Shown: piece after piece, positions 10,967-44,371 of the stretch
How positions within the stretch are numbered: the first letter of the stretch is position 1
Layout: each line of letters opens with the position of its first letter
DNA from: Candidatus Fermentibacterota bacterium
Lineage (GTDB): Bacteria; JAFGKV01
Reading direction: 5' to 3'
Assembly: GCA_016928395.1 (NCBI GenBank)
Contig: JAFGKV010000063.1
Span: forward strand, 1-64,000
DNA length: 64,000 nt
Made by a program: the position numbers and the translations under genes
The notes under the pieces: generated by a model
Told to the model about the DNA's origin: nothing
The model's input: the letters and a program-made list of their open reading frames with translations, nothing else
The model's database searches: none

Positions 10967-11764
10967 ATGAGCGAGACACGGTCTTCCTCACCTGCTGATC
11001 GGGCAGCTTCATGGCGAGTTATTCTTGATGGCGAGGCGTCACCGGGGTTCAACATGTCCTTGGATCAGGTCATCGCGGAATGTGTCGCCGGCGGCGAAAG
11101 CCCCCCGACCCTGCGGTTTTACGGATGGGATCGACCCGCGGTGTCCTTGGGCTACCACCAGAGTCCGGAGAAAGTATTGGACATGGCGGCCGTGAACGCA
11201 CATGCTCTGACGGTGGTGAAGAGACCGACGGGAGGCCGGGCGGTCTTGCATGGAGACGATTTGACCTATTCCGTGGCCTTGCCCGCGAATGGACCGTGGG
11301 CTGTCAGCGTGACCGAGGCGTACCGCATGCTCAGTGAGGCATTACAGCGAGGCTTCAGGCGAGCCGGTGTCGAGGTCACTCTCGCCCGGGGCCATCGTGG
11401 AGGACTCCGCCCGGGCCCGCTGCCCTGTTTCGCGAGCACCGCGCGCCACGAACTTGTGTGGAACGGCCGCAAGCTAGTGGGCAGCGCGCAGCGACGCCTT
11501 CGGGGGGGGTTGCTTCAGCAGGGGAGCATTCCTCTGGCGAGGGGCACCATCAGACTGGATGAACTGGTTCCTCCCGGCCAGAGAATCGAGGTTGAGGATC
11601 GATGGGCCACGGTGGAGGAGGCCGCCGGTCGCCCCGTGGACCGTCTACACCTGGCCCGCGAATTGGCCCATGGTTTCGGCGAGCAGTTCGGCGTTTCGTT
11701 GTGCTTCGAGTCGCCACGAATCGACGAGACCATTGCTGCCCAAAGGATTACGGCAACTCCATGA
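10967..11764 (+). CDS. lipM: Lipoyl-protein octanoyltransferase, LipM type
   Basis: 265 residues of the BPL/LplA/LipB fold. The substrate-binding block KRPTGGRAVLHGDDLTYS is present, and the LipM signature follows: a cysteine in PLPCFASTARHEL (Cys154), then GRKLVGSAQRR and LLQQGSIPL. LipM enzymes use that cysteine to move octanoate from acyl-ACP to GcvH, and its place directly after the gcv genes fits. An LplA-like lipoate ligase is the alternative, but the Cys-Phe block argues for LipM. ATG 10967 is preceded by GAGG; the open frame upstream (TTG 10901) has no ribosome site. Its stop overlaps the next start (ATGA). Confidence 0.88.
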   Translation: MSETRSSSPADRAASWRVILDGEASPGFNMSLDQVIAECVAGGESPPTLRFYGWDRPAVSLGYHQSPEKVLDMAAVNAHALTVVKRPTGGRAVLHGDDLTYSVALPANGPWAVSVTEAYRMLSEALQRGFRRAGVEVTLARGHRGGLRPGPLPCFASTARHELVWNGRKLVGSAQRRLRGGLLQQGSIPLARGTIRLDELVPPGQRIEVEDRWATVEEAAGRPVDRLHLARELAHGFGEQFGVSLCFESPRIDETIAAQRITATP

Positions 11765-12153
11765 ACGGATTCGACATACCCAACGATCCGCAGAGAGCCC
11801 CTGAAGTACCGCTCCTGCTATCACGTCTCGCGAAGGAGATCGTCGATCGCAGCCTCACCGCTCCGGCGATGATGTTCCTGGAGTCAACCAAGCCCTTGAG
11901 TTTCCTGGGAAGCCAGATTATGGTGTTCTTCTCCCCGTTCGTGAAGGCGTTCTGGGATGGCGCAAGCTACGATCAGCTTTCCGCCCTCCTGGAAGACCGG
12001 GCGAACATCGAGATCCTGCTCCAGGAGATGGAGCGTCTTGAGGCGGAACGCTCGGCGATCCGAAAGGAAGAGAAAGCACGACGCAAGGCGGAGAAAGACC
12101 GCGTGAAGGCTCAGAAGAAGGAGAGACGGTTATGGCCGAAGAACGACAACTGA
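11761..12153 (+). CDS. Small uncharacterised protein with basic coiled-coil tail
   Basis: 130 residues, family not recognised. The N-terminal 65 residues are mildly hydrophobic, with a possible amphipathic or membrane-associated segment around LGSQIMVFFSPFVKAF. The last about 45 residues are a strongly charged helix rich in Lys, Arg and Glu (LEAERSAIRKEEKARRKAEK), probably a coiled coil. The start overlaps lipM by four bases and the end overlaps the GlmL gene by 22 bases. It is thus translationally locked between a lipoylation enzyme and an ASKHA protein, which suggests it is a partner of one of them. Confidence 0.75.
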   Translation: MNGFDIPNDPQRAPEVPLLLSRLAKEIVDRSLTAPAMMFLESTKPLSFLGSQIMVFFSPFVKAFWDGASYDQLSALLEDRANIEILLQEMERLEAERSAIRKEEKARRKAEKDRVKAQKKERRLWPKNDN

Positions 12154-13964
12154 ACCTCGCGGAGCTGAGGAGCATCCTTGCCACCGATTGTGGCAGCACG
12201 ACCACCAAGGCGATCCTCATCGAGAAGGAAGCTGATGAGTACCGGCTGAAAGTGCGCGGCGAGGCGCCCACCACGGTGGAAAGGCCCGCCGAAGACGTGA
12301 CGAGGGGTGTGCTCAATGCCGTGAGCGAGGTGGAGGAGCTCACGAACCGCACCATCCTTGACGGCGAGATCATCATAAAACCCCGCACCGAAACGAAAGG
12401 AGTCGATATCTATATTTCGACCTCCAGCGCCGGGGGAGGGCTGCAGATGATGGTGGCGGGGGTGGTGAAGAGCATGACCGGGGAAAGCGCCCAGCGTGCC
12501 GCGCTGGGCGCTGGCGCCATCGTGATGGATGTACTCGCATCGAATGACGGCCGCCTGCCCCACCAGCAGATCGAGCGTATCCGCAATCTCAGACCTGACA
12601 TGATCCTCCTCTCCGGAGGAATTGACGGAGGGACAACCACCCATGTCGCGGAACTGGCGGAAATCATCTCCGCCGCAGATCCCAAGCCCCGGCTCGGCCA
12701 CGGCTACAAGCTTCCGGTGATCTATGCGGGAAATGCTCAGGCGCGCGACATCGTGCGGGATATTCTGGGCAACAAGGTCGAACTGTTCATCGTCGACAAT
12801 TTGAGACCGGTGTTGGAACGGGAGAATCTCGGCCCGGCCCGCGAGAAGATCCATGAGCTCTTCATGGAGCACGTCATGCAGCAGGCGCCTGGTTATGCCA
12901 AGCTCATGCAGTGGACCGATGTGCCCATCATGCCGACCCCAGGAGCCGTGGGCCTCATCATCCAGACCATCGCCCGCCAACACGGCATCGATGTCGTCGG
13001 AGTCGACATCGGCGGCGCCACCACCGATGTGTTCAGTGTGTTCTCGGACACGTTTAACCGCACAGTGAGCGCCAATCTCGGAATGAGCTACTCGGTCTCC
13101 AACGTATTCGCCGAGACGGGCCTGGACAATGTCATGCGCTGGGTCCCATTCGACATGGATGAACTGGATCTCCGTAACCGCATAAAGAACAAGATGATTA
13201 GACCGACCACCATCCCGCAGCTCATGGAGGAGTTGATCGTCGAGCAGGCCATCTCCCGGGAGGCGCTGCGGCTGGCGTTCATTCAGCACAAGTCATTTGC
13301 CGTGGGATTGAAAGGCGTCCAGCAGGAGCGGACGATCTCCGACACCTTCGAGCAGAAAGGCTCCGGCGAGACGCTGGTCAACATGATGAGCCTGAAACTC
13401 CTGGTCGGCTCCGGCGGCGTTCTCTCCCATGCCCCTCGACGCAACCAGGCTGCGATGATGCTCGTTGATGCCTTCCTGCCCGAGGGATTCACGCATCTGG
13501 CGGTTGACTCCATCTTCATGATGCCTCAGTTGGGCGTACTGTCAACGGTGCACCCGGATGCCGCGACCCAGGTGTTCGAGCGCGATTGCCTCATCCATTT
13601 GGGTACCTGCATCGCCCCGGTGGGCCCTGGCAAGCCTGGCAAGACGGCTCTGGAACTCGATATCGAGCTTCCCGGCGGTTCGACTCATGTCGAGATGGAG
13701 TATGGGAAGATGAAGCTGATCCCACTGGGGGTCGGCGAGAAGGCCATGGTGAGGGCCCGGCCCGGCAAGGGGCTGGACCTCGGTGCCGGCAGGGGCGCCG
13801 AGATGAGCGAGGAGGTCGAGGGTGGTGTCGTGGGCATCATTCTGGACACGCGGGGGAGGAATCCTTTCGTACTGCCCGTGGATGCCAAGGAACGGGTGCC
13901 GAAGCTCGTTGAATGGATCGCTGCCCTGGATGCCTATCCGGCGGCTGCGCTGCAGCGGCACTAA
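12132..13964 (+). CDS. GlmL/MutL-family ASKHA ATPase (cobalamin-mutase reactivase-like)
   Basis: 610 residues matching the GlmL (glutamate mutase MutL) family. An actin-like phosphate-1 loop ILATDCGSTTTKAILIE lies at the N-terminus, STSSAGGGLQMMV follows, and a second nucleotide site is GVDIGGATTDVFSVF. Characterised relatives accompany B12-dependent carbon-skeleton mutases and are thought to repair or assemble them. No glmE/glmS, ornithine aminomutase or other B12 enzyme is in this window, so the client is unknown. ATG 12132 has AGGAGAG upstream and lies inside the preceding gene. Confidence 0.85.
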   Translation: MAEERQLNLAELRSILATDCGSTTTKAILIEKEADEYRLKVRGEAPTTVERPAEDVTRGVLNAVSEVEELTNRTILDGEIIIKPRTETKGVDIYISTSSAGGGLQMMVAGVVKSMTGESAQRAALGAGAIVMDVLASNDGRLPHQQIERIRNLRPDMILLSGGIDGGTTTHVAELAEIISAADPKPRLGHGYKLPVIYAGNAQARDIVRDILGNKVELFIVDNLRPVLERENLGPAREKIHELFMEHVMQQAPGYAKLMQWTDVPIMPTPGAVGLIIQTIARQHGIDVVGVDIGGATTDVFSVFSDTFNRTVSANLGMSYSVSNVFAETGLDNVMRWVPFDMDELDLRNRIKNKMIRPTTIPQLMEELIVEQAISREALRLAFIQHKSFAVGLKGVQQERTISDTFEQKGSGETLVNMMSLKLLVGSGGVLSHAPRRNQAAMMLVDAFLPEGFTHLAVDSIFMMPQLGVLSTVHPDAATQVFERDCLIHLGTCIAPVGPGKPGKTALELDIELPGGSTHVEMEYGKMKLIPLGVGEKAMVRARPGKGLDLGAGRGAEMSEEVEGGVVGIILDTRGRNPFVLPVDAKERVPKLVEWIAALDAYPAAALQRH

Positions 13965-14011: not shown

Positions 14012-15139
14012 GTGGCTCATGCATATACACCAGGATTGAGGGTTGCCGACCTCACCATCGTCCAGAAGGAGCGCCGGCTGCCGTTACCCGGACAGGTGCT
14101 GGTGAATGTCGGCGACAGGGTGACTGCGACTCAGGTCGTAGCACGCACCGAGCTTCCGGGGAATGTCGAGAGTGTCAACGTCGCCAATCGTTTGGGCGTC
14201 CCCCCGGAAGATGTGCCCCACTGCATGCTGAAGAAGGAAGGCGACCCCGTCCAGAAGGGCGAAATCATGGCCCAGAGCAAGAGCTTCTTCGGCTTGTTCA
14301 AATCATCGTGCCAGGCAACGGTCGACGGCACCGTTGAGACAGTGTCCTCCGTAACGGGACAGGTACTCCTCCGAGAGCCCCCCATGCCGGTAGAAGTCCG
14401 GGCCTATGTAGATGGCGTCGTTACCGAGGTGCTGCCCCGGGAGGGTGTGATCGTCGAGACCCCCGCGACCTTCATCCAAGGAATCTTCGGCATCGGCGCT
14501 GAAACTCAAGGTGAACTGGTCATGGTAGCCAGTAGCTCGGATGAGGTGCTCGAGGCCGACCGCCTCACCGAGGCGGTACGCGGCAAGGTCGCGGTTGGCG
14601 GATCGCTGGTGACCGCGGCGGCCATCCGCAAGGCCATCGCCGTCGGCGCCAAAGGGATTATCGCCGGAGGCCTTCACGACAAAGACCTGCGGGAGTTTCT
14701 GGGATATGATCTCGGCGTCGCTATCACCGGTAACGAGGACAAGGGGATCACCCTGATTGTCACGGAAGGATTCGGCACTATCAGAATGGCAGAAGGGACT
14801 TTTGCATTGCTCAAGCGATGCGAGGGGATGGAATGCTCGATGAACGGGGCAACGCAAATTCGGGCCGGCGTGATCCGGCCGGAGGTCGTCATTCCCCGAC
14901 GCGACGAGCAGGTCGACGTCGATGGAGACGCCCGGGAGGGAGCCGGCAACATGGTGATCGGGAGCCCTGTCCGGGCTATTCGTGAGCCCTATTTCGGCCG
15001 CCTCGGCACAGTAAGTGCTCTGCCCTCAGAGCTGCAGCGTGTCGAATCCGAGACCATGGTGCGCGTCCTCGAGGTGCAGTTCGATGACGGCACCCGGGCC
15101 GTGGTCCCCCGCGCCAACGTGGAACTCATCGAGAAATAG
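14012..15139 (+). CDS. Uncharacterised barrel-sandwich / KOW-like protein, GlmL partner
   Basis: 375 residues, not assignable to a named family. Residues about 20-175 contain two stretches with lipoyl/biotinyl-type barrel-sandwich character (VLVNVGDRVTATQVVART, then CQATVDGTVETVSSVTGQVL). The middle has small-residue-rich segments (VGGSLVTAAAIRKAIAVGAKGIIAGG) suggesting an alpha/beta domain. The end (PYFGRLGTVSALP...RVLEVQFDDGTRAVVPRANVELIE) looks like a KOW/SH3 barrel. No lysine sits in a canonical lipoyl motif. GTG 14012 is preceded by AGGAGG. It follows the GlmL gene by 47 bp in the same direction and is probably functionally tied to it. Confidence 0.75.
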   Translation: MAHAYTPGLRVADLTIVQKERRLPLPGQVLVNVGDRVTATQVVARTELPGNVESVNVANRLGVPPEDVPHCMLKKEGDPVQKGEIMAQSKSFFGLFKSSCQATVDGTVETVSSVTGQVLLREPPMPVEVRAYVDGVVTEVLPREGVIVETPATFIQGIFGIGAETQGELVMVASSSDEVLEADRLTEAVRGKVAVGGSLVTAAAIRKAIAVGAKGIIAGGLHDKDLREFLGYDLGVAITGNEDKGITLIVTEGFGTIRMAEGTFALLKRCEGMECSMNGATQIRAGVIRPEVVIPRRDEQVDVDGDAREGAGNMVIGSPVRAIREPYFGRLGTVSALPSELQRVESETMVRVLEVQFDDGTRAVVPRANVELIEK

Positions 15140-15194: not shown

Positions 15195-16430
15195 ATGAGC
15201 CCGACGCTCATCTCCAGCCTCTTGGCAGGGTTCTTGGTTGGTGTGGTTCTCGGGCTCATCCTGCTGCGCGTAGGCCCACCGCGCCAGGCCAAAACGAGCC
15301 GTGAGGAAGACGCGGCAGCGTGGGCGTCGGTGCTCAATCAGGCCGTACGAGAGATGAAGACACGCCAGGTCACGGCGGACTCTCAGCGTGAGGATGCAGA
15401 GCACCGGGCAATACACACCGAAATGCTCTACCGGATGATCCTGGACGCGGTACCCAACGGAGTCGTAGCTTTCGACACCTCCGGTGCGGTGGTCACCGCC
15501 AATCCGGTGGCTCGCCGCCTCCTGGGGATAGACAAGACCAATGCGGTGGAGATGCCCCCCACTCTGGCGAGCTATCTCAGATCGGCTTTGAACGGGTCGA
15601 CTCCTCCCTACGTGGAAACCGACCTTTTGGTTGGGCATGCCGTCGTGCCTGTCGGCGTCCAGATCCGCCCGCTGTCCGTGAGTACGGCGACACCCGGCGC
15701 GGTTATGGTAGTCGCTGAACTGGCCGAACTCCGGCGGCTGCAAACCCGTGCCCGGCTCATGGAGGATCTGGCCGATCTGGGGCAGCTCACCGCGGGCATC
15801 GCCCATGAGTTTCGTAACGCCTCAGGAACCCTTCGGGCATCGGCCCAGTTTCTGGCAGACAAGGTCGACGGAGCGGCCAAGGAGGCGGTACACGATCTTC
15901 TTGAAGAGACAGACAAGCTCGCGCGTGTCACGACCGAGTTGCTTGATTTCGCGAAACCCTGGGACCGAGGCATCGAGTCGGTCGAGTTGGATCCCCTGAT
16001 TCGTCAGGTGTCCGGCCAGCTTGGGGCAGCCTTTCCCTCGCACCCGGTGGAACTGCGGCTCACCTGCCCCACACGTTCAGTGATGGGCAAAGGCACACTA
16101 CTGGCCCGAGTGATCGATAATCTCATTCGTAACGCCGCCGAAGCCAACCCGCCAGGTGCGCAGATCAGGGTGGAATCATCCTCGACCCGCGACGAAGGCG
16201 GCTCATGGCTCGTGGTGACGGTTATGGACCGCGGCTGCGGTCTTGCCTGGGGTGATGCGGAGGAGGCCTTCCTCCCCTTTCGAAGCACTAAGCCTGGCGG
16301 CACTGGCATGGGTCTAACTCTGGCGAGGAAGATAGCCCGCCTGCACGGCGGCACGCTGACCCTAACCAATCGTGATGGAGGCGGTGCCGTCGCGACGCTC
16401 AGGCTGCCATTCGGCGACGAAGAGGTATGA
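15195..16430 (+). CDS. Sensor histidine kinase (NtrB/PilS-like)
   Basis: 411 residues. One N-terminal membrane helix (about 5-25), a linker, and a PAS-like domain (about 75-180: MILDAVPNGVVAFDTSGAVVTANPVARRLLG). Then HisKA with the phospho-acceptor His204 in LTAGIAHEFRN, and a HATPase with N box NLIRNAAEA, DRGCGL and GGTGMGLTLA. It should phosphorylate the response regulator encoded at 17112, from which it is separated only by an oppositely oriented pilin gene. PilS proteins usually have more membrane segments, so the name is inference from context. GGAGGG precedes ATG 15195. Confidence 0.9.
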   Translation: MSPTLISSLLAGFLVGVVLGLILLRVGPPRQAKTSREEDAAAWASVLNQAVREMKTRQVTADSQREDAEHRAIHTEMLYRMILDAVPNGVVAFDTSGAVVTANPVARRLLGIDKTNAVEMPPTLASYLRSALNGSTPPYVETDLLVGHAVVPVGVQIRPLSVSTATPGAVMVVAELAELRRLQTRARLMEDLADLGQLTAGIAHEFRNASGTLRASAQFLADKVDGAAKEAVHDLLEETDKLARVTTELLDFAKPWDRGIESVELDPLIRQVSGQLGAAFPSHPVELRLTCPTRSVMGKGTLLARVIDNLIRNAAEANPPGAQIRVESSSTRDEGGSWLVVTVMDRGCGLAWGDAEEAFLPFRSTKPGGTGMGLTLARKIARLHGGTLTLTNRDGGGAVATLRLPFGDEEV

Positions 16431-16956: not shown

Positions 16957-17044
16957 GTGGATCACTCCCATAGGTGAGAGGCACGAGACGACCGGCAGCA
17001 CATACCACGAACTCCGGAGACCTCACTGCGGTCAATGGTCCTCC

Positions 17045-17060
17045 TGCAATTCTCGGACCG
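17045..17060 (-). promoter_or_regulatory. Candidate sigma-54 (-24/-12) promoter for the pilin gene
   Basis: Reading the minus strand, CGGTCCGAGAATTGCA has GG and GC separated by exactly ten bases and a perfect TTGCA -12 box, against the consensus TGGCAC-N5-TTGCA. It lies about 90 bases upstream of the pilin start. The divergent gene next to it encodes a sigma-54 activator. Single-site matches of this kind occur by chance, so the context carries much of the weight. Confidence 0.45.
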
Positions 17061-17111
17061 CCTTCTTCGCAATGCCTTTTTCCCTTCGTGCAGCGATTTC
17101 GGAGGCTGGTC

Positions 17112-18518
17112 ATGAGTGATCGGTCGCAGAGTGCCCGGGCAAAAGTACTCCTGGTTGAGGATCGCGAGACCCTGCGAAGATCCTTCGCCCGCCTGCTGAC
17201 CGAACGCTCATACGAGGTCCAGGAAGCGCCCGATCTGGCCCGCGCCCGTGCCGAGTTGGAGAATCATCCCCCCGATGTGGTGCTCACTGATCTCAAGCTC
17301 CCCGACGGCGAGGGTACCGAACTACTCTCACTGTGCCAGCAACTCCCCAAGCCACCTCCGGTGATTCTCCTTACCGCGTACGGTTCAGTGGAAACCGCGG
17401 TGCAGGCAATGCGGCGGGGCGCATACGACTTTCTCACCAAGCCGGTAGACTCGGAGCACCTTCTGCTCGTGACCCAACGCGCACTGCAGGATTCCGCCCG
17501 CCGGTGGCGCCTGGAGGCCTTGGCTTCGGTAGAAGACGAACCCACCCTTCTCGGCGATAATGCTCCCTTCCGAGAAGTCGTGCATCGCGCGTGCACTGCT
17601 GCGGCGACCGACACCACCGTTCTCCTTCTGGGAGAGAGTGGCACTGGGAAGGAGCTGCTGGCGCGCCTTATTCACCAGCGCAGCACGCGAAAGGATGGTG
17701 TGTTTGTGCCGGTCAACTGCGCGGCTATATCGGCTTCTCTGGCCGAGAGCGCCCTCTTCGGCCATGAACGCGGCGCATTCACCGGAGCCCGTGAACGCCA
17801 CCGCGGCTGGTTCGAGCTCGCCCACGGAGGCACGCTCTTCCTCGATGAAATCGGCGACCTTGAGCATGGGCTCCAGGGCAAGTTCCTCCGTGTCTTGGAG
17901 GACGGGATGCTGCAGCGGGTGGGTGGTTCCCAGTGGCTGAAGGTCAATGTCCGCGTCATCGCGGCCAGCAACCGCGACCTCAGCACCGATGTTGCAGCGG
18001 GCCGGTTCCGTAGCGACCTCTACTACCGTCTCGCCGTATTCCCCCTGGTGTTGCCGCCTTTGCGAGAGCGCCTCGATGACATCCCGATCCTCGCGCTTCA
18101 TCTCCTGAACCGCCATTCCAAGGCCTTGGGACGAGGACAGCTCTCCCTGAGTGTCTCTGCGCTGGACGCATTGGCGCACTACCATTGGCCCGGGAACATA
18201 CGGGAGCTGGCCAATGTCCTGGAAAGAACTGCGATTCTCGCCCGGGAACCGCTAATCACCCCCGAGATGCTGCCGCCTCTGCAGCGGCTTTCCGTCGAGA
18301 CCGTTCCCGGGGAGGACCTGAGTCTGCCGCGCCAAGTTGCCGCCGTGGTCGAAAGAGTCGAGCGTGAGGCGATCACCCGCGCCCTGCGGAAGACCTCCGG
18401 TCGAAGAAGTGAGGCGGCGCGCCTGCTGGGAATCACCTATCGGACTTTGCTCAACAAACTCAACTCCTATGACATGGAATCCCCGAAGGGAGCCCCGCAT
18501 ACTCGTGGAGGAGAATGA
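17112..18518 (+). CDS. Sigma-54-dependent response regulator (NtrC/PilR-like)
   Basis: 468 residues in the standard three-domain order. A receiver domain has phospho-acceptor Asp60 in VVLTDLKLPDGEG. The AAA+ domain has Walker A GESGTGKE, the sigma-54-contact loop GAFTGA and Walker B GGTLFLDEIGDL. A Fis-type helix-turn-helix ends the protein (RRSEAARLLGITYRTLLNKL). It activates sigma-54 promoters on phosphorylation, presumably by the kinase at 15195. ATG 17112 has GGAGG upstream. Its stop overlaps the carbamoyltransferase start region. Confidence 0.95.
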   Translation: MSDRSQSARAKVLLVEDRETLRRSFARLLTERSYEVQEAPDLARARAELENHPPDVVLTDLKLPDGEGTELLSLCQQLPKPPPVILLTAYGSVETAVQAMRRGAYDFLTKPVDSEHLLLVTQRALQDSARRWRLEALASVEDEPTLLGDNAPFREVVHRACTAAATDTTVLLLGESGTGKELLARLIHQRSTRKDGVFVPVNCAAISASLAESALFGHERGAFTGARERHRGWFELAHGGTLFLDEIGDLEHGLQGKFLRVLEDGMLQRVGGSQWLKVNVRVIAASNRDLSTDVAAGRFRSDLYYRLAVFPLVLPPLRERLDDIPILALHLLNRHSKALGRGQLSLSVSALDALAHYHWPGNIRELANVLERTAILAREPLITPEMLPPLQRLSVETVPGEDLSLPRQVAAVVERVEREAITRALRKTSGRRSEAARLLGITYRTLLNKLNSYDMESPKGAPHTRGGE

Positions 18519-36158: not shown

Positions 36159-37967
36159 TCACCGGATACGCACCGTTCGATGCACCGCCCGGCCACCCTC
36201 GTCATCAATGACCATCAGCATGTAAGTCCCCGCGGGAAGCGTTCCCGGCTGCAGCCACCCTCCACAGGAGGGAAGATGCCATTGTCCGACTACCCGTCCG
36301 GCCACGTCGTACAGAGCGGCCTCTCCATTGGAATGGGCTCCTCGGAGCGCTACCCAAAACCCCGTGTGCCACGGATTGGGAGCAGTATCAATGCGAAGCA
36401 CGGCAGGAGAACGGTCTGCTCCGAGCCCACCATACGCGACCCAGATACACGATCCACTGCTCTCCAAATGGACGGCCGACTCCCGGAACCGGACATTCAA
36501 CCCGAATGCAGGCCCCGATCCGGTCAGCAACCATCGCGTTGCCTGGCCGGAAACCCCCGCCCCCGAAGCACCCACGGCATACCCGTACATGCCCGCAGGA
36601 GTGCCGCAGGCCCCCGCCCCTGCGGCATACCCCGCCGTGTCGGCATCCACGGGATTCAGGCTGCTCAGCACCGCGACGGCCTCTTCCAATTCACCCGGAG
36701 GCACCAGGGCCGGTGACGAGCCATCGGCCAACAGTACCGGCGATGCAAGGCCGTCAGCGGCGATAACGTAGACGCCGTCACGGCAGAAGGCAAAGGGCCG
36801 TGACGCGCCGGTCAGATCCGAACCGACCACAATGCCCAGCACGCCATTGAGGGGTTCCCCCTCTACCGTCCAGCACGCCGTTGCCGGTTGCCTGAGCACC
36901 CAGGCGCCTTCGGGATTCCATGAAACCCAAATGCCGTTGGTCCAGATGACGCCCATCATTTCGTCGAGCGCCTCGTCCGTGGCCGTGCGATACTCAATGG
37001 ATGTGCCCGCAAGGCGGTAGACGCCATCCCGAGTCCACGCGACGGTGGTGGTCGAATTGGCCACTACGCCCCGCACGCCGCATAAGGATGATCCATCTGA
37101 GTGCAAGTACTCCACGGCCGGGGTCGTCAGTTGCCAGGCACTGGAATCGGACCATGCCACTGGCGCACCCAGGCCGGACACCACGCCTCGGATGCCCTTC
37201 AAGGACGCTCCATCCACCGTCACACACTGCTCGCATGGACGACCCACACGCCAGACCGCGCTATCCGTCCACGCAATGGCGTACTCCCCTGCCGACACAA
37301 GACCTCGGACCCCCGCGAGTGGATCTCCTCCGGGAAGCGACGCCTCCTGCGAAACCGGCGCAAGGTAGTACACACGATCGCCGGACCAGCCGAACGCCGT
37401 GGAAGCAACGCCGACTACCGCATACACACCGGGGATTGACTGCCCCGCGGTGTCTCTATACTCCAGAGCGGTGACTCCCGACAGTTGAAAGACCCCTTCA
37501 CCGGTCCAGCCAAGCACGCTGCCGCTCACCTGCGTTGCTCCCCGGAGACCGACGATCGAGTCACCCGAGGGAAGCCGATACTCCCGGCACTCCTGACCCA
37601 GTGCCCACACTGCCTCTGCCGTCCATCCCACGGGGTCTCCGGGCGAGAGGGCGACACCCCGAAGGCCCGCCAAGGGAAGGCCTTCGGGAAGAAGATAAGA
37701 GATAGCGGGTGATGTGAGCAGATAGGCAGCAGAGTCAGTCCATGCGATGGTTCCGTTGCGGGCCCTGCACCCGGCCTCTACCCCGCGGATTGCCTCCCCG
37801 GATGGGCCAAGAACCTCAACAAGGCCCGGGCCGATTCTCCACACATGATCAGCGTTCCACACGAAGCCCTGCTCTGCACTCACCACGCCTCCGCTGATAC
37901 CCGCACTCGCACCGGCTGCGCAGAGGATGACAATTGAGAAGAGAACTGTGGCCAATCTGCAGTACAT
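36159..37967 (-). CDS. Secreted protein of ten ~39-residue repeats with C-terminal sorting-like domain
   Basis: 602 residues. A signal peptide (LATVLFSIVILCAAGASA) is followed from about residue 35 to 420 by ten tandem units of about 39 residues. Each follows the pattern hydrophobic-hydrophobic-W-T/S-D-x-(A/V)-(W/Y)-x-L...E-Y...G-x-x-L-x-G-(V/I)-R-G-V. Examples begin IAWTDSAAYLL, VGWTAEAVWAL, VAWSDSSAWQL and VAWTRDGVYRL; the last unit is partial. The end (DTAPNPWHTGFWVAL, LYDVAGRVVGQW, LPAGTYMLMVIDD) is an FlgD-Ig/type-A-sorting-like beta domain. The repeats may form a propeller or solenoid; I do not recognise the family. GGAGG precedes ATG 37967. Confidence 0.8.
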   Translation of the reverse strand: MYCRLATVLFSIVILCAAGASAGISGGVVSAEQGFVWNADHVWRIGPGLVEVLGPSGEAIRGVEAGCRARNGTIAWTDSAAYLLTSPAISYLLPEGLPLAGLRGVALSPGDPVGWTAEAVWALGQECREYRLPSGDSIVGLRGATQVSGSVLGWTGEGVFQLSGVTALEYRDTAGQSIPGVYAVVGVASTAFGWSGDRVYYLAPVSQEASLPGGDPLAGVRGLVSAGEYAIAWTDSAVWRVGRPCEQCVTVDGASLKGIRGVVSGLGAPVAWSDSSAWQLTTPAVEYLHSDGSSLCGVRGVVANSTTTVAWTRDGVYRLAGTSIEYRTATDEALDEMMGVIWTNGIWVSWNPEGAWVLRQPATACWTVEGEPLNGVLGIVVGSDLTGASRPFAFCRDGVYVIAADGLASPVLLADGSSPALVPPGELEEAVAVLSSLNPVDADTAGYAAGAGACGTPAGMYGYAVGASGAGVSGQATRWLLTGSGPAFGLNVRFRESAVHLESSGSCIWVAYGGLGADRSPAVLRIDTAPNPWHTGFWVALRGAHSNGEAALYDVAGRVVGQWHLPSCGGWLQPGTLPAGTYMLMVIDDEGGRAVHRTVRIR

Positions 37968-38299
37968 GGTTTGCCTCCGGCTTTGATCCCAACACGGCAC
38001 TCCTCAGCGTTGGCTCAATATAGCCTCCGACAGCCCCGTCACAAGGGGCTACTACTCAGACCCATCAGGGTTCAGCCTTCAGACAGCGACGCGTACCCGG
38101 GCGTGTCACCGTCCGCGTGCTTCATTCCGTGCTCGGGATTCCTGCGGCGATTCCCGCTCAGGAAAGGCGAATCGTCGAGTGCTGAGTGCCGACCGCACGC
38201 GTAGCGGGCGCGCTCCACACCGTGCCAGATCACTCAGCCCCGAACCAAGGCCGACCGGACAGTTGCCGTGGCAGGGTCGCGCCGTCGACGGGAGAGAAA
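37968..38299. other. 332-bp gap with one hairpin
   Basis: AGCCCC-7 nt-GGGGCT (38032-38050) is the only structure seen, about 70 bases upstream of the secreted repeat protein gene on the minus strand. No gene or clear promoter was recognised. Confidence 0.45.
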
Positions 38300-39262
38300 C
38301 TAAAGAAGCCTGGCCTCCCGGTACCATTGTGCCGTTCGTTCCATGCCGGCGTGAACCTGGACCGACGGCGCAAACCCCAAGATTGTTCGGGCCTTGGCGA
38401 TGGAGAACTCCCTGTTCTTGGTGAAAAAGTCCATGCGCCGCTTGAAGATGGGAGGGGTAAGCCCTAGGAGAGGACACAGTCGCTCGGCCACGGAAGCCGC
38501 AGCCATGAACGGCCATACGGGGAGGTGTAGCCGGGGTGCGGCAGCTCCCAGTACGTCGGCAACGGTGGCGGCCCACTCATTCAGGGTCGGCGCATGAGGG
38601 CCGGCCAGGATGAAAACCTCACCCGCCGCCTGGGGTAGCCGGCCGCACAGAAGAATGCCCTCGATCAGATCATCTATGTAGGTAAGATGATACCTCGGCG
38701 TGCCATCGCCGATCATGAAGAACCGGCCCCGGGCGATGAGCCTGAAGAACTTCAGGAGGCGCCGATCGCCAGGACCGTAGATGCCGGATGGTCTGAAGAT
38801 GACCAGCTCCATGGATGATGACTGCCGCTGTAAGTACTCCTCGGCGGCACACTTGCTCGCCTGATACGGATCCGTTGGTGCAAAGGGCGAGTCTTCTGCG
38901 GCGGCGGCCCCGTGGATTTCCCCGTGAACCCCCACCGTACTGCAGTACACGAAGCGCCGCACGCCGGCATTCCGGGCCGCGGCGTACATATGCTCGGTAC
39001 CGTGGAGATTGGCGGCCATGTGATCCGCTTCACCGAACCCCGTGTCACGGTACGAGGCAGCGAGGTGATAGACAGTGTCGATGCCCTCTACGGCCCGGGC
39101 GCAGGCTGCCGGGTCACGAACATCCCCCGTGGTGATCTCGCTCATGAACCTCGCGGCGGGCGCCCGTCTGAGCATGGCGCGCACCGACTCCCCCTCGCGT
39201 ACGAGCCGGGCGACCAGGTGGCCCCCGGTGAACCCTCCGGCACCGGTTACAAGTACAGCCAC
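38300..39262 (-). CDS. NAD-dependent epimerase/dehydratase (extended SDR)
   Basis: About 320 residues. N-terminal NAD-binding VLVTGAGGFTGGHLVARL (GxxGxxG), then DVRD, HLAA, YCSTVGVHG (catalytic Ser/Thr region) and YQASK (Tyr and Lys of the active site). FRPSGIYGPGD and the long C-terminal part suit the 3-beta-HSD/NSDHL-like or sugar-epimerase group; the substrate is not clear. GTG 39262 begins right at the first strand but its ribosome site is weak. It lies 25 bp after the four-gene membrane cassette and could belong to the same transcript. Confidence 0.88.
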   Translation of the reverse strand: MAVLVTGAGGFTGGHLVARLVREGESVRAMLRRAPAARFMSEITTGDVRDPAACARAVEGIDTVYHLAASYRDTGFGEADHMAANLHGTEHMYAAARNAGVRRFVYCSTVGVHGEIHGAAAAEDSPFAPTDPYQASKCAAEEYLQRQSSSMELVIFRPSGIYGPGDRRLLKFFRLIARGRFFMIGDGTPRYHLTYIDDLIEGILLCGRLPQAAGEVFILAGPHAPTLNEWAATVADVLGAAAPRLHLPVWPFMAAASVAERLCPLLGLTPPIFKRRMDFFTKNREFSIAKARTILGFAPSVQVHAGMERTAQWYREARLL

Positions 39263-39287: not shown

Positions 39288-39923
39288 TCAACCGAGAATC
39301 GCAGCCAGGGTAGGACGAACCCAATCGTCGACCAAAAAGGTGAGCCGGCCAACCAACAGCGAGATGCGTGCCATCACGGTGTAGCCGAAGCTCGCGCCGA
39401 AACAGACCATGATAAACCATATGCCGAGCCGGCTGACAGGCCTGAGTATCCCCGTATGAGGCCGGGAGAAGTAGAAATAGACCAACACCGAAAGCACGCC
39501 CACCAGCACCAGCAGATTCTGCACACTGGCCAGGGAAAGGGGCAGAAGAGGCAGCATGGTATCCTTCACTTGGGGGAGTACATCCCCGTGCAGCCGTTGC
39601 ATGAGCTCCACACCGACGAAGTATCCCATGTAGACGGCCAAAGCCCAACGGCCCAGGAACGAGACACGCTGTACATACCGGAGGTAGAGCATGATGCCCA
39701 ACACGCCGCCGATGACAAGATACCAGTTCCTGCCGGGATCCGCGGCCAGCTTCTGGAAAAGATTGGGTATGATGGTTCGGTGGAGGACGATGCCGATCTC
39801 ATATCCCAGGGAGAGTCCGACGAAGAGACTCTCTGCGAACCGGTAGAGGGGGTTATCCTTGTAGAGGAAGCTGTAGATCGCCAGCGTGAGAAACGCAGCA
39901 ACCCAGGCACTAACGAGGTCCAA
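39288..39923 (-). CDS. Uncharacterised multi-pass membrane protein (cassette gene 4)
   Basis: 211 residues, about six membrane segments. Not a family I can name. A motif FLYKDNPLYRFAESLFVGLS lies between the first two helices, and YFYFSRPHTG precedes the last pair. The TTG start at 39923 is chosen because GGGAGGAAG lies at ideal spacing. It overlaps the end of the previous gene by 14 bases, so its translation depends on that gene. Last of four consecutive membrane genes transcribed from 42440 leftward. Confidence 0.75.
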   Translation of the reverse strand: MDLVSAWVAAFLTLAIYSFLYKDNPLYRFAESLFVGLSLGYEIGIVLHRTIIPNLFQKLAADPGRNWYLVIGGVLGIMLYLRYVQRVSFLGRWALAVYMGYFVGVELMQRLHGDVLPQVKDTMLPLLPLSLASVQNLLVLVGVLSVLVYFYFSRPHTGILRPVSRLGIWFIMVCFGASFGYTVMARISLLVGRLTFLVDDWVRPTLAAILG

Positions 39924-40785
39924 GTCTTCCTCCCGCGCGGGTGCGCTCACTTCGCGAGAGCACGTAGAAGACATTACCAAGAAGGATGAACACGATGATG
40001 ATGAGGTGAACTATGGACTGCACATCCATGCCCCTCCTGGCAACCCGAGCCCTGTCTCGCAACTCAGGGTAGGCACTGGCAAGGAGCTCCTCGTACTCGG
40101 CCGCCCCCTTCAGCCCACCCAGAAGCCCGATCATCTGGCCGGCCTTCAGATAAGTATAGTACTTGGGCGCGGAGACCGCGGTGGCCCCGACGGCCACCGT
40201 CTGCCCAAACTGGGCATTGACGAGGTTTGCCCAATACTCGCCCAGAATGCCGGTTGCCAGGCTTACGGCCACGCCGATCTGCGGATAGCCTCTCACCTCC
40301 TGCATGAGAGGAATCTCTTTTAGAGGAATGCCCCGATGATCCCGGGGAAACGCTGCCGAGATATCTTCCGCCATCCTGCGCATCACCGCCTGGGCGCCGT
40401 CTTTGTAGCCCAGGTAGACGAAATCGCGGCCCTCTTCAACGGAGAACTCACCAGTCACTCGATCCAGGCTTCCCTGGGCCATGTTGGGCCCACCCAACGG
40501 AAACAACGCCAGCACGACCACCCTGACACCACGCGTGAAGCAATGGCGTAGAATCGCATCGGCCATGGGATCTAGCTCAGGAGCCGAGCTGGGGCCGTAG
40601 TCGAATGAGAGCATGAGAACATCCTGCGGGCCAAACGACTCAACCCGCTGGAACAGGGCTTCCACGGCGGGGGTGGTCAGGATTGGCAGGCCCATGGGGA
40701 TGAGGACCGGGAGCAAGGCGCCCACGGCAACCAGGAGATAGACCCAACGCCGGTCAATACCGCCTACCTGTTGTGCATCCGACAT
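39910..40785 (-). CDS. Uncharacterised protein anchored at both ends (cassette gene 3)
   Basis: 291 residues. One membrane helix near the N-terminus (VYLLVAVGALLPVLIPMGLPI), about 200 soluble residues, and one helix near the C-terminus (VHLIIIVFILLGNVFYVL). The soluble part looks alpha/beta (VLMLSFDYGPSSAPELDP, GVRVVVLALFPLGGP, RDFVYLGYKDGAQAV, TVAVGATAVSAPKYYTYL) and presumably lies outside the inner membrane. No family recognised. ATG 40785 has GGGAG upstream, within the end of the preceding gene region. Confidence 0.75.
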   Translation of the reverse strand: MSDAQQVGGIDRRWVYLLVAVGALLPVLIPMGLPILTTPAVEALFQRVESFGPQDVLMLSFDYGPSSAPELDPMADAILRHCFTRGVRVVVLALFPLGGPNMAQGSLDRVTGEFSVEEGRDFVYLGYKDGAQAVMRRMAEDISAAFPRDHRGIPLKEIPLMQEVRGYPQIGVAVSLATGILGEYWANLVNAQFGQTVAVGATAVSAPKYYTYLKAGQMIGLLGGLKGAAEYEELLASAYPELRDRARVARRGMDVQSIVHLIIIVFILLGNVFYVLSRSERTRAGGRLGPR

Positions 40786-40786
40786 C

Positions 40787-41425
40787 TTACTCTCCCGCCC
40801 CACCCATATATGGGCGCTCGATGCCGAGAATGATCCTGATGGCCATGGATGCAGCTCCCAAGGCCGCACCGATGAGGATGCCCCGCTGCGCGGCAAGGTT
40901 GGGGACATTCATGATCCACTCGGTCAGTGCGGCGCTGGGCGGGAGCACGAACTTTCCGATGGGCACCCGGCCCAGCATGACGATGACAGCCGAGATCATC
41001 AGGATTGCAGCCTCGAGGTTCTTGACCCGGAAGGCCCGGAAGGCCGCCGAGGCAATCATGAAGGCGAGGAGGCTGAACATCGTGGCCTGCAAAGGAGTGA
41101 AGACGGTGTCGAAGAGCCAGTTGAAACCGACGGCCCTGCCCTGGGCCGATACAAACGGCTCCACAATGCCTAAAGAAGCCATGACCGCGAATGACGCGAC
41201 ACTCACGATGGAGTTACGCCACCCGATGCTGCGCCGTCCAATCTTCTTGGAATGGTGCTGCAAAAAGCTGACGACGCCCAACGGCAAGGCGAACGCGGTC
41301 ACGATCATGAGGAGTTCATCCAGCTTCTCGTTGAGCCCCACCACCACTGGAGCGCTAACGAAGAAGGCGACGACGACGAAGGTGCCGGTGAGAAACGCGA
41401 GTAGAACCGGTATTTGCCGCTTCAA
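40787..41425 (-). CDS. Uncharacterised multi-pass membrane protein (cassette gene 2)
   Basis: 212 residues, about six membrane helices, starting with KRQIPVLLAFLTGTFVVVAFFV. A basic cytoplasmic loop (QHHSKKIGRRSIGWRNS) follows helix 2 or 3. Its stop is one base from the next gene's start, and its start lies four bases after the stop of cassette gene 1. It gives no family match that I recognise. Confidence 0.75.
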   Translation of the reverse strand: MKRQIPVLLAFLTGTFVVVAFFVSAPVVVGLNEKLDELLMIVTAFALPLGVVSFLQHHSKKIGRRSIGWRNSIVSVASFAVMASLGIVEPFVSAQGRAVGFNWLFDTVFTPLQATMFSLLAFMIASAAFRAFRVKNLEAAILMISAVIVMLGRVPIGKFVLPPSAALTEWIMNVPNLAAQRGILIGAALGAASMAIRIILGIERPYMGGAGE

Positions 41426-41429
41426 GGGT

Positions 41430-42440
41430 TCACTCCTGGGTGAAGAAGTCGGCGAACTCGCCGATTCCGAGAGATGACAAGACCATCCCCACCACGATGA
41501 GGACGATCAGCGCCGCCTTGACGAGATCCTGACCTTTGATAGAGCCAAGGATCAGCGGTTCCCGCGATAGGTACGCGCTGGCAGCGTACAGCTCTTCTCC
41601 GATGAGCGTGTAGTCACACGCCACCACGAAAAACGGGAGCTGCGCCAGCTCCGCGGTGCCGGCTACCTGGATGGCCCCTGCCGCATTGCCGGCCTCCGCC
41701 ATAATCAACGATTCGGCGTAGAATGAACCGATGAGGAAGTTGGTGGCAGGCTTTTCCCTGGTCATGAGCCCCTGAATCGCGGCCGTATAGGCGAACTGGT
41801 CATACGTTACATAGTTGACCATGTCTTCCTGGAAATAGTCAGGCCGGCCGGCCTTCATGTACGCTTCCTTCACGACCTCACGCGCCGTGGCCAGGACAAG
41901 GGGATCCTTGTTCGGCACCTCCAGCTGCGTACCATAGGCGGCTGTTCGTTCTGCAACATACCCAAGGATCGACATGGAGGCCACAGTCTGGATATTGTCC
42001 ACAGACATGATCCCCGGAATGTAGAGCACCTTGCGGCCCATCTCGGTAGCGCGGCCCACGGCCTCATCAACAGCGTCTAAACCAGCAATCTTCCGGATGA
42101 AGAGCGGCGCTCCCTTCTTGGCCAGACCAATGTACGCCAGTATCGCACCAGCAAAGAAGGTGAAGAGTAGCAATGCGTTCAGCCGCTCCTCTCGGAAAAA
42201 CCTGGAGGGTGTAGCTGTGGTCTCCATGCCGCTCAGGGTGACCAAGGCTATGGCGGAGTCTGCCGAGGCGCCGGCCAGATCCGACATGCAGGGTGTCGCC
42301 GACACGCACAGCATCAGCAGGGCCCCGCCGAACAGAACACTTGCCGCCCGCGCCGCCCGATGGACGGCAGAACATCGCCGCGACAACCACGGCACGAAGA
42401 CCCTGGCTTTATCCCACCACCCAACGGTCATCGAGCCCAC
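41430..42440 (-). CDS. Uncharacterised membrane protein, possibly DUF6754 (cassette gene 1)
   Basis: About 336 residues. A signal-like hydrophobic segment (ASVLFGGALLMLCVSATP), a second helix (LNALLLFTFFAGAILAYIGLAKKG), a conserved-looking soluble domain and a C-terminal helix (LIVLIVVGMVLSSLGIG). Domain motifs include FIRKIAGLDAVDEAVGRATEMGRKVLYIPGI, quoted here as FIRKIAGLDAVDEAVGR then ATEMGRKVLYIPGI. I associate these with Pfam DUF6754, from memory. The start GTG 42440 has AAGGAG six bases upstream, placed inside the last codons of rplI. The stop of rplI is only six bases away. Confidence 0.78.
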   Translation of the reverse strand: MGSMTVGWWDKARVFVPWLSRRCSAVHRAARAASVLFGGALLMLCVSATPCMSDLAGASADSAIALVTLSGMETTATPSRFFREERLNALLLFTFFAGAILAYIGLAKKGAPLFIRKIAGLDAVDEAVGRATEMGRKVLYIPGIMSVDNIQTVASMSILGYVAERTAAYGTQLEVPNKDPLVLATAREVVKEAYMKAGRPDYFQEDMVNYVTYDQFAYTAAIQGLMTREKPATNFLIGSFYAESLIMAEAGNAAGAIQVAGTAELAQLPFFVVACDYTLIGEELYAASAYLSREPLILGSIKGQDLVKAALIVLIVVGMVLSSLGIGEFADFFTQE

Positions 42441-42445
42441 ACCGT

Positions 42446-42889
42446 CTACTCCTTCACGACCCACAATTTGATCCGGGTAGTAACATCAGCGTGAAGCCTC
42501 AGTTCAACAGCGAAGATGCCCAAGGTATTGATGGGATCATCGAGGACGATCTTCTTCTTGTCAATATCGAATCCCTTTTCCTTGAGAAGGCCGGCAATGT
42601 CCGCGGTAGTCACCCGGCCAAAAATCCTATCCTCTTCGCCGACTTTGACTCGGGCGGTCAAGGACACCCGCCGCAACTGATTGGCGAGGTGTTGTGCCTC
42701 TCGACGTGAGCGGCTCTCGGCCATCTGGGCCTGCTTGTCGCGCTCCATAAGCTGGTTCCGCGCGGCATCGCTGGCTGGAAGCCCCGTGCCGCGGGGAATC
42801 AGGAAGTTGCGGGCGTATCCATCGGCGACCTTGACCACATCGCCGCGTTTGCCCAGCGTAGGCATATCCTGCATCAGAATAAGGTCCAT
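42446..42889 (-). CDS. rplI: Ribosomal protein bL9
   Basis: 147 residues. The N-terminal rRNA-binding domain MDLILMQDMPTLGKRGDVVKVADGYARNFLIP is cut here into MDLILMQDMPTLGKRG and VADGYARNFLIPRG; a long helix and the C-terminal domain (IFGRVTTADIA, VELRLHADVT) follow. ATG 42889 has GAGAGAGG upstream. It follows the ssb gene by 28 bp. The last codons contain the ribosome site of the downstream membrane cassette. Confidence 0.97.
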   Translation of the reverse strand: MDLILMQDMPTLGKRGDVVKVADGYARNFLIPRGTGLPASDAARNQLMERDKQAQMAESRSRREAQHLANQLRRVSLTARVKVGEEDRIFGRVTTADIAGLLKEKGFDIDKKKIVLDDPINTLGIFAVELRLHADVTTRIKLWVVKE

Positions 42890-42917
42890 AACCTCTCTCT
42901 CCTCTCGCCGTCTCGGC

Positions 42918-43343
42918 TCAGAAGGGCATCTCGTCGTCCACCGGTTCGTCAAATGCCTCCCGCTCAGGGGGCGGGGGGGCGTACTCGCGATCACCCTCGG
43001 CCTTGCTGAGCATCTGCAGTCGTTGTGCGTGAATCTCAATGACACTGTGGCGCTGACCATCGGAGCTCTCCCAGGTCCGAGAATGGAGTCTCCCTTCAAC
43101 CAACACCGAAGAGCCCTTATGGGCCAGCTCTGCGACGCGCTCCGCAAGCTTCTGCCAGGCGACGATGGTGAAAAAGCTGGTTTCTTCTCGTGATTCGCCG
43201 CTGGAGTCCTTATAGTAGCGGTTCACCGCAATGCCAAAGGTCGCGACGGCTACTCCGGAGGGCGTGTACCGCATCTCGGGATCGCGGGTCAACCTCCCGG
43301 TGAGCTGCACGAAATTGAGGCTGGGCAGTCTCAGGTCCGCCAT
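42918..43343 (-). CDS. ssb: Single-stranded DNA-binding protein, copy 1
   Basis: 141 residues. OB-fold with LTGRLTRDPEMRYTPSG, then FFTIVAWQKLAERVAE and GSSVLVEGRLHSRTW; acidic linker and the partner-binding tail DDEMPF. It coats single-stranded DNA in replication and repair. GAGAGGAG lies upstream of ATG 43343. It occupies the place normally held by rpsR, between an ssb gene and rplI. Confidence 0.95.
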   Translation of the reverse strand: MADLRLPSLNFVQLTGRLTRDPEMRYTPSGVAVATFGIAVNRYYKDSSGESREETSFFTIVAWQKLAERVAELAHKGSSVLVEGRLHSRTWESSDGQRHSVIEIHAQRLQMLSKAEGDREYAPPPPEREAFDEPVDDEMPF

Positions 43344-43398
43344 GTCATGCTCCTCTCCACCCTACCAGACCCTGGGGGCGTTGGATCTCCATCGGATG

Positions 43399-43842
43399 TT
43401 AGAATGGGAGATCATCCACCAGGTCGTCAACCTGCACGATGCTCTCCTCCTCATCGAGCCCTTCCGAACCGTGGGATTGATCGGTACGCGACTCGTCCAT
43501 TCGGTTGAGGAACTGGACACGAAACGCTCGGATCTCCACCACAGTTCGCCGGGCACCGCCCTCTGTCTCCCACTGGCGGCTTTGCATCTCTCCCTCGATC
43601 AGGACGGCGCTACCCTTCCGGAGGCGTTCACCTACGAGTTCGGCCAGGCGCTGCCAGGCTACGATATTCACATAACACACGTCCTCGCGCCGCTCACCGT
43701 CAGGCGAGCGATACCATCGATTCGACGCAATCCGAAAGTTGGCCACGGGCACGCCCGACGCGGTGTACCGCAGTTCAGGATCCCGCGTGAGATTTCCCGC
43801 AATAAACACTCTGTTCAACGCGGGCAAGCGGAACTCAGCCAT
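43399..43842 (-). CDS. Single-stranded DNA-binding protein, copy 2
   Basis: 147 residues, paralogous to the neighbouring copy but clearly diverged. It shares IAGNLTRDPELRYTASG, YVNIVAWQRLAELVGE and GSAVLIEGEMQSRQW, and the tail DDLPF. The linker is acidic and lacks the proline run of copy 1. GGGAGG precedes ATG 43842. The two may form mixed tetramers or serve different processes (replication versus competence or repair); sequence alone does not decide. Confidence 0.95.
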   Translation of the reverse strand: MAEFRLPALNRVFIAGNLTRDPELRYTASGVPVANFRIASNRWYRSPDGERREDVCYVNIVAWQRLAELVGERLRKGSAVLIEGEMQSRQWETEGGARRTVVEIRAFRVQFLNRMDESRTDQSHGSEGLDEEESIVQVDDLVDDLPF

Positions 43843-43924
43843 ATCGGTGCCCTCCCTATGTCAGAGCTCTTGGTCGGTGGCGGCTGGCCGGCTGATTGGA
43901 TGGGGGCCGGACTACTGCTCACGC

Positions 43925-44371
43925 TCAGGTGTCATCCTCGACATTGTCGGCTCGCACGTCGCTGTCGTCAAGTTCGTTCTCATGCTCATCCCGATGGCTG
44001 TCGTCGGGTTCTGCCACCGGATGCTCCGCGGCCTCAGCCTGGCCCTGTTCCATAGCGACAGGAGAGATCATGCCTTCAGGCGAGGGAGCTTCCCGAACGA
44101 TGGTGAGATACCGCAGAACCGATTCCTGCATTCGGTAGTACTGGTCGAGGGCCGCTACCGTCTCACCCTGCGCCTCAAACTCCACCAGGAAGTAGATCCC
44201 GTCACGGCGATGCTTGATTGAATACGCGAGCTTGCGCTTTCCCCACTCCTCGATCTTGAGGATTCTCCCGCCTCGTGACTCGATCTGCTCCTTGACCCTG
44301 TCCATGTGCTTCTCGAACGCATCTTCGGAAGCCAGGGGGTCGACAACTACCACGGTTTCGTAAAACGCCAC
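43925..44371 (-). CDS. rpsF: Ribosomal protein bS6
   Basis: 148 residues. The core fits S6: AFYETVVVVDPLASEDAFEKH, then WGKRKLAYSIKHRRDGIYFLVEF cut as GKRKLAYSIKHRRDG, and YYRMQESVLRYLTI. The C-terminal about 45 residues are a long acidic extension (EPDDSHRDEHENELDDSD), beyond the usual S6 length. In other bacteria S6 pairs with S18, but no rpsR is present in this operon. GTG 44371 has AAGGAGG upstream. First gene of the S6-SSB-SSB-L9 unit. Confidence 0.96.
   Translation of the reverse strand: MAFYETVVVVDPLASEDAFEKHMDRVKEQIESRGGRILKIEEWGKRKLAYSIKHRRDGIYFLVEFEAQGETVAALDQYYRMQESVLRYLTIVREAPSPEGMISPVAMEQGQAEAAEHPVAEPDDSHRDEHENELDDSDVRADNVEDDT

Follow-up and report, generated by a model that had tools for sequence, protein, structure and literature searches.

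A conserved four-gene membrane unit containing DUF6754 and its genomic association with a GlmL-related module

The window, meaning the whole stretch of 64,000 nt of a Candidatus Fermentibacterota contig (JAFGKV010000063.1) analysed here, contains four consecutive genes for membrane proteins directly behind rplI, the gene of ribosomal protein L9. This raises the question of whether the four genes form a unit, and what such a unit might do. The original prediction had regarded them as a candidate four-gene envelope complex of unrecognised function, carrying external domains and tied to the ribosomal operon.

The quartet as a gene unit

The open reading frames confirmed four consecutive genes at 39288-42440 on the minus strand, which we denote P1 (41430..42440, 336 aa, GTG start), P2 (40787..41425, 212 aa, TTG start), P3 (39910..40785, 291 aa, ATG start) and P4 (39288..39923, 211 aa, TTG start). 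The upstream rplI (42446..42889, minus strand) ends 5 bp before P1 and not 6 as first proposed, while the other predicted spacings were found unchanged, with 4 bp between P1 and P2, 1 bp between P2 and P3, and a 14-bp overlap of P3 and P4. As also foreseen, a ribosome site (AAGGAG) lies within the final rplI codons, 6 bp ahead of the P1 GTG at 42440, and an SDR-family epimerase gene (38300..39262, minus strand; PF01370, E=7e-40) starts about 25 bp past P4.

G002, another genome from this family, has at locus L152 the order HppA-rpsF-ssb-ssb-rplI-P1-P2-P3-P4-SDR, in accordance with rpsF-ssb-ssb-rplI-P1-P2-P3-P4-SDR in the window. The four proteins share 71-80% identity between the two genomes, with pN of 0.13-0.19 against pS of 0.66-0.74. 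The kept synteny, the identity and pN values well below pS together indicate that P1-P4 are real genes under purifying selection. The closest out-of-family relatives among the matches listed (L028, L029 and L031) carry quartets that do not follow rplI, hence the linkage to rplI is local and, as far as observed, confined to this bacterial family. The suggested tie to the ribosomal operon thus holds for the synteny in G002, but was seen in this family only. Within the window, two ssb paralogues but no rpsR lie between rpsF and rplI (42446-44371), S18 being encoded on contig C188, and the two-ssb arrangement is common to the window and G002. On the other side of the locus, the tail of a 613-aa repeat protein (36159-38000) weakly resembles a type IX secretion sorting domain (TIGR04183, with 20 bits against a cut-off of 23).

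A scan of named genomes gave at least 566 P1 relatives, and the loci studied are the best 80 of these, a selection biased towards relatives of the window copy. They come from Zixibacteria, WOR-3/Stahlbacteria, Fermentibacteria, Latescibacterota, Eisenbacteria, Edwardsbacteria, Cloacimonadota, Marinimicrobia, a Gemmatimonadetes bin and others. Among these best 80 of at least 566 loci, 66 held complete P1-P2-P3-P4 sets, 90 in all and in identical order, with median gaps of 10, 2 and 1.5 bp, and 17 of the 80 carried two or three quartets in tandem. Of the 14 loci without a complete quartet, six stop after P1-P2 or P1-P2-P3 with the contig end reached or close by, three have P3 split in two ORFs and five contain P1 only. 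The pairwise distance matrices of P1-P4 from 117 quartets correlate with rho of 0.52-0.63, against a permutation maximum of 0.15. We consider it well supported that P1-P4 are one conserved, co-inherited gene unit. The neighbourhood search proposed with the original prediction thus recovered the quartet as such, and the homologues were not mostly scattered single genes, the outcome named beforehand as speaking against it.

The genome under study contains DUF6754, the P1 domain, six times. Whole quartets lie on C93, C183, C104, C187 and C91, and one quartet is split, with P1 alone on C212 (near the contig end) and P2-P4 on C262. P1 stands alone in L009, in L145 of G001 and in L149 of G002, and P2-P4 stand alone in L025 and in L156 of G002; both halves of the split quartet are present in G000 and G002, and the P1 half in G001. 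It looks as if these loci are pieces of one split, retained quartet. In L042, L071, L074, L075 and similar loci a quartet with a short P1 stands between PTS enzyme I- or sugar-phosphate isomerase-like genes and nucleotidyltransferase-, metK- and ahcY-like genes, where "-like" marks neighbour genes identified by reading the sequence, without a family search.

Families, folds and predicted topology

P1 is a full-length member of DUF6754 (PF20539, E=9e-116), scoring 386 bits against a gathering cut-off of 27 over profile positions 4-256 of 257. The Pfam entry describes a domain of unknown function only, and in the literature searched we found no paper on DUF6754, PF20539 or PF13941 (the family of c0, below) and no description of DUF6754 partners. 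Window P2, P3 and P4 matched no Pfam or NCBIfam family and gave no significant PDB match by sequence, and their surveyed relatives showed sporadic weak family matches and nothing more. The claim of unrecognised function was accordingly right for P2-P4; P1 does belong to a family, though a function-less one. No function of the P1-P4 system has been described.

P1 consists of a signal/TM segment, a TM segment at 89-107, a Rossmann-like domain at about 110-300 and a TM segment at 306-324. AlphaFold2 models were made for P1 and P3. The P1 model is confident from about residue 80, with pLDDT above 90 in most blocks, and shows a TM helix, alternating helices and strands, and a second TM helix. P3 (mean pLDDT 95.9) has the same general build, with one TM segment at each end around a Rossmann-like domain. 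A search of both models against PDB by Foldseek, as had been suggested, gave no match at E<1e-3, and since the matches obtained were weak and generically Rossmann-like, the fold search leaves a ligand or enzyme role unsupported. Many of the most conserved residues of both domains are near the C-terminal ends of the strands, which is where Rossmann-like proteins bind their ligands. By profile comparison P1 and P3 did not come out as homologues (hhalign probability 2%), yet both give weak matches of the MCP/eIF2B Rossmann type; a homology of P2 and P4 was likewise dismissed (0.4%).

P2 appears as a six-TM protein with both termini inside, and P4, with the N-terminus outside, has about six TM segments, of which four exceed the hydropathy threshold and two are weaker, as well as the conserved motif GFGASFGYTVMARxSLLIGR. 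Loop charges agree with this N-in P2 and N-out P4. The loop after the first TM segment of P1 carries 4.4 K/R, which places the domain inside, hence the Rossmann-like domain of P1 is most likely cytoplasmic. The P3 tails carry 3.8 and 4.2 K/R, placing them inside and the acidic P3 domain outside, so that the P3 domain is predicted to be extracytoplasmic and the sole external conserved domain of the P1/P3 pair. An FN3 domain, usual in the external part of P1 and apparently present outside the membrane in the P1 of L152, is absent from the window copy. The external domains originally suggested are thus retained for P3, but for P1 the conserved domain most likely lies on the other side.

Natural inserts occur in some relatives, with beta-propeller-like repeats inside P2 in L078 (18705-20480) and HEAT-like repeats inside P3 in L084 (4075-6009). 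The beta-repeat of L078 P2 and a beta-rich-looking insert in L058 P4 are in loops predicted to be external, and the HEAT-like insert, unusual in a periplasmic domain, is the one misfit to the external topology. An SppA-like fusion to P1 in L046 was discarded as a run of N lies in between, and the long "P1" ORFs of L061 and L067 were discarded as their weak matches are apparently to the FN3 part only and not to DUF6754.

A search of Pfam, NCBIfam, PDB, Foldseek and PADLOC did not assign all four proteins to any characterised transporter or secretion complex. PADLOC models matched none of the seven proteins (P1-P4 and the three described below) and thus gave no sign of anti-phage defence; three weak PHROG matches (E 0.001-0.006), which might have hinted at a phage origin, were judged to be chance.

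A partner module related to GlmL

The original prediction of a four-gene cassette was correct as to the unit but incomplete, as three further partners lie 25 kb away in the window. They form one block on the plus strand (11.8-15.1 kb), downstream of glycine-cleavage P genes and a lipoate ligase gene: c2 (11761..12153), a protein of about 130 aa without known family that was detected by an HMM of our own (E=3e-37); c0 (12132..13964), a 610-aa GlmL/MutL-family ASKHA protein and probable ATPase (PF13941, E=6e-128) whose gene overlaps c2; and c1 (14012..15139), a 375-aa protein with weak similarity to the RnfC/NqrA barrel-sandwich (biotinyl) domains (E about 2e-4, below cut-off). Among P1-P4 there was no match to any further Rnf/Nqr subunit family. 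Directly after c1 come a PAS histidine kinase (15195-16430, plus strand) and then an NtrC-type response regulator (16974-18518, plus strand), whose link to the system is uncertain.

Among the best 80 loci, c0 (22 loci), c1 (20 loci, 22 by HMM) and c2 (12 loci) were the commonest quartet neighbours. Fermentibacteria have an arrangement like that of the window block with the quartet following directly. L169 and L170 hold c2-c0-c1-P1-P2-P3-P4 as one contiguous seven-gene block, L168 holds the seven genes contiguously as P1-P4-c2-c0-c1, L157 has a contiguous P1-P4-c0-c1 without c2, and L158 reads c2-P1-P4-c0. Often, as in the window, c0-c1 and the quartet are unlinked.

Presence and absence were compared in a sample of 192 genomes from 184 genera, each genome at least 80% complete, with c0 counted at E<1e-60. 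P1 was found in 51 genomes, P3 in 52, c1 in 48 and c0 in 46. All 51 P1 genomes contain P3, with one occurrence elsewhere (Fisher p 4e-46), c1 is present in 48 of the 51 and in none elsewhere (p=4e-42), and c0 in 45 of the 51 and one elsewhere (p 5e-36); these p-values are uncorrected for shared ancestry and hence too small, yet most carriers are from different families. Of the 51 genomes, three carry the quartet but neither c1 nor c0, and in three others c0 is missing. P1 varies from one to seven copies per genome, whereas nearly every genome has just one full-length c1 that stands alone, also alongside up to seven P1 copies, and c0 usually occurs once, not counting long paralogues in which c0 and c1 are fused.

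Both phosphate motifs of c0 (DCGSTTTK and DIGGATTD) are intact, and with 428 bits against a cut-off of 27 for PF13941 the protein belongs to the GlmL/MutL superfamily. It differs from GlmL/MutL in scoring below all three NCBIfam cut-offs (TIGR01319, 176/204 bits; NF040745, 229/475, the score that separates it from the GlmL equivalogs; NF040744, 219/600), in its longer C-terminus, in its pairing with c1 and in occurring without a glutamate mutase. GlmL has been described as the reactivation chaperone of glutamate mutase (PMC4682846). Glutamate mutase E (PF06368) was strong in only 3 of the 192 genomes, one of them with the module, and absent from the genome under study, so we discarded a glutamate-mutase accessory role for c0. 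As c0 falls below the GlmL cut-offs and nearly all its carriers lack this mutase, it is probably a GlmL relative serving another client, which, to judge from the co-occurrence, would be the quartet. Proteins of about 1000 aa that fuse c0 and c1, which supply many of the extra c1 signals, also speak for joint action of c0 and c1. Such fusions were located in L141 (492-3527), L142 (3826-6663) and L143 (3878-6925), the last starting with a domain that looks like an XRE-type helix-turn-helix. Adjoining the fusions no cobalamin enzyme was seen by eye; a lysine 2,3-aminomutase-like gene lies about 13 kb off.

Possible workings of the system

Beside the observed gene unit, its order, the co-occurrence and the single-copy c0-c1 next to multi-copy quartets, we infer a physical P1-P4 complex, ATP coupling and a ligand relay. 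The reading we prefer, which we believe about as much as we doubt it, is one inner-membrane complex that has one pocket on the cytoplasmic side and another on the external side, in which one c0-c1-c2 module services every quartet and a ligand or signal is relayed. Given the predicted folds and topology, P2 and P4 together would supply the roughly 12 helices of a membrane core, P1 would offer a Rossmann-like pocket to the cytoplasm, usually plus an external FN3 domain, and P3 would offer one to the periplasm. The single module per genome, with c0 as the ATPase, would service all quartets and in doing so would most likely use ATP to remodel or energise the cytoplasmic P1 domain, in the way described for GlmL and glutamate mutase. 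Paralogous quartets might bind different things, each relaying a small ligand or signal across the membrane.

In group II ECF transporters, several membrane modules encoded in a genome share a single ATPase module, and an ATP-powered transporter of this kind, in which P2/P4 would be the channel, P3 the external binding domain, P1 the coupling element and c0-c1-c2 the shared motor, would account for the two polytopic subunits, the pocketed domain on each side and the one ATPase module beside many quartets. The likeness is in logic only, as the window system has no ABC ATPases and no ECF-T or S component families; P4 matches no transporter family and P2 does so sporadically and weakly, no consistent substrate genes stand beside the quartets, and we know of no ASKHA ATPase powering transport. 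We regard this as unlikely. Still harder to favour is a trans-membrane sensor whose external FN3 and P3 domains bind a ligand while P1 signals to cytoplasmic regulators. It fits the variable external P1 domain, the kinase-NtrC pair after c1 in the window and two quartets of this genome whose immediately following gene is histidine-kinase-like (L011) or encodes a HAMP-SpoIIE phosphatase (L008), but in other phyla regulators do not recur beside the quartet and the window copy is conserved despite its lost FN3. As between transport, sensing and modification, the regulator-adjacent quartets of this genome favour sensing, yet this does not recur elsewhere, and one ATPase module shared by all quartets would be in keeping with transport or maintenance.

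We think it very improbable that c0-c1 serve a cobalamin mutase, with the quartet linked by shared ancestry only. It is true that c0 is in PF13941, whose GlmL members are reactivation chaperones of glutamate mutase (PMC4682846), but the rarity of this mutase noted above (among cobalamin mutases the search covered glutamate mutase E) and the presence of c0 and/or c1 beside quartets in more than 20 loci speak against it. Operons can gather unrelated genes; that unrelated membrane genes came to share the rplI operon by chance is nevertheless so improbable that we rule it out, given the constant order over many phyla, the tandem duplication as a block and the co-inheritance.

Returning to the serviced complex, we suggest tentatively, and with more doubt than belief, that P1-P4 and c0-c1-c2 represent a new class of ATP-coupled membrane machine, in which an ASKHA ATPase, and not an ABC or AAA+ one, would drive or remodel a membrane complex that has one Rossmann-like domain facing either side, with up to seven such complexes encoded per genome and a spread over about ten bacterial phyla. 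Should c0 act on the quartet, this would link a GlmL-family ATPase to a membrane complex for the first time, going by the literature searched. For DUF6754, so far an orphan domain, the analysis provides a defined set of partners that can be tested. As the system is present in 51 of the 192 genomes sampled around this one (about a quarter), is kept in two genomes of only 1.3-1.4 Mb and reaches seven copies elsewhere, it is probably of importance for the cell envelope in a large part of bacterial diversity, most of it uncultured. In the phylum of G138, with single-contig genomes of 4-8 Mb, DUF6754 was detected in 29 of 118; in G138 itself P1 adjoins c1 (L164), and P3 lies about 3.2 Mb away.
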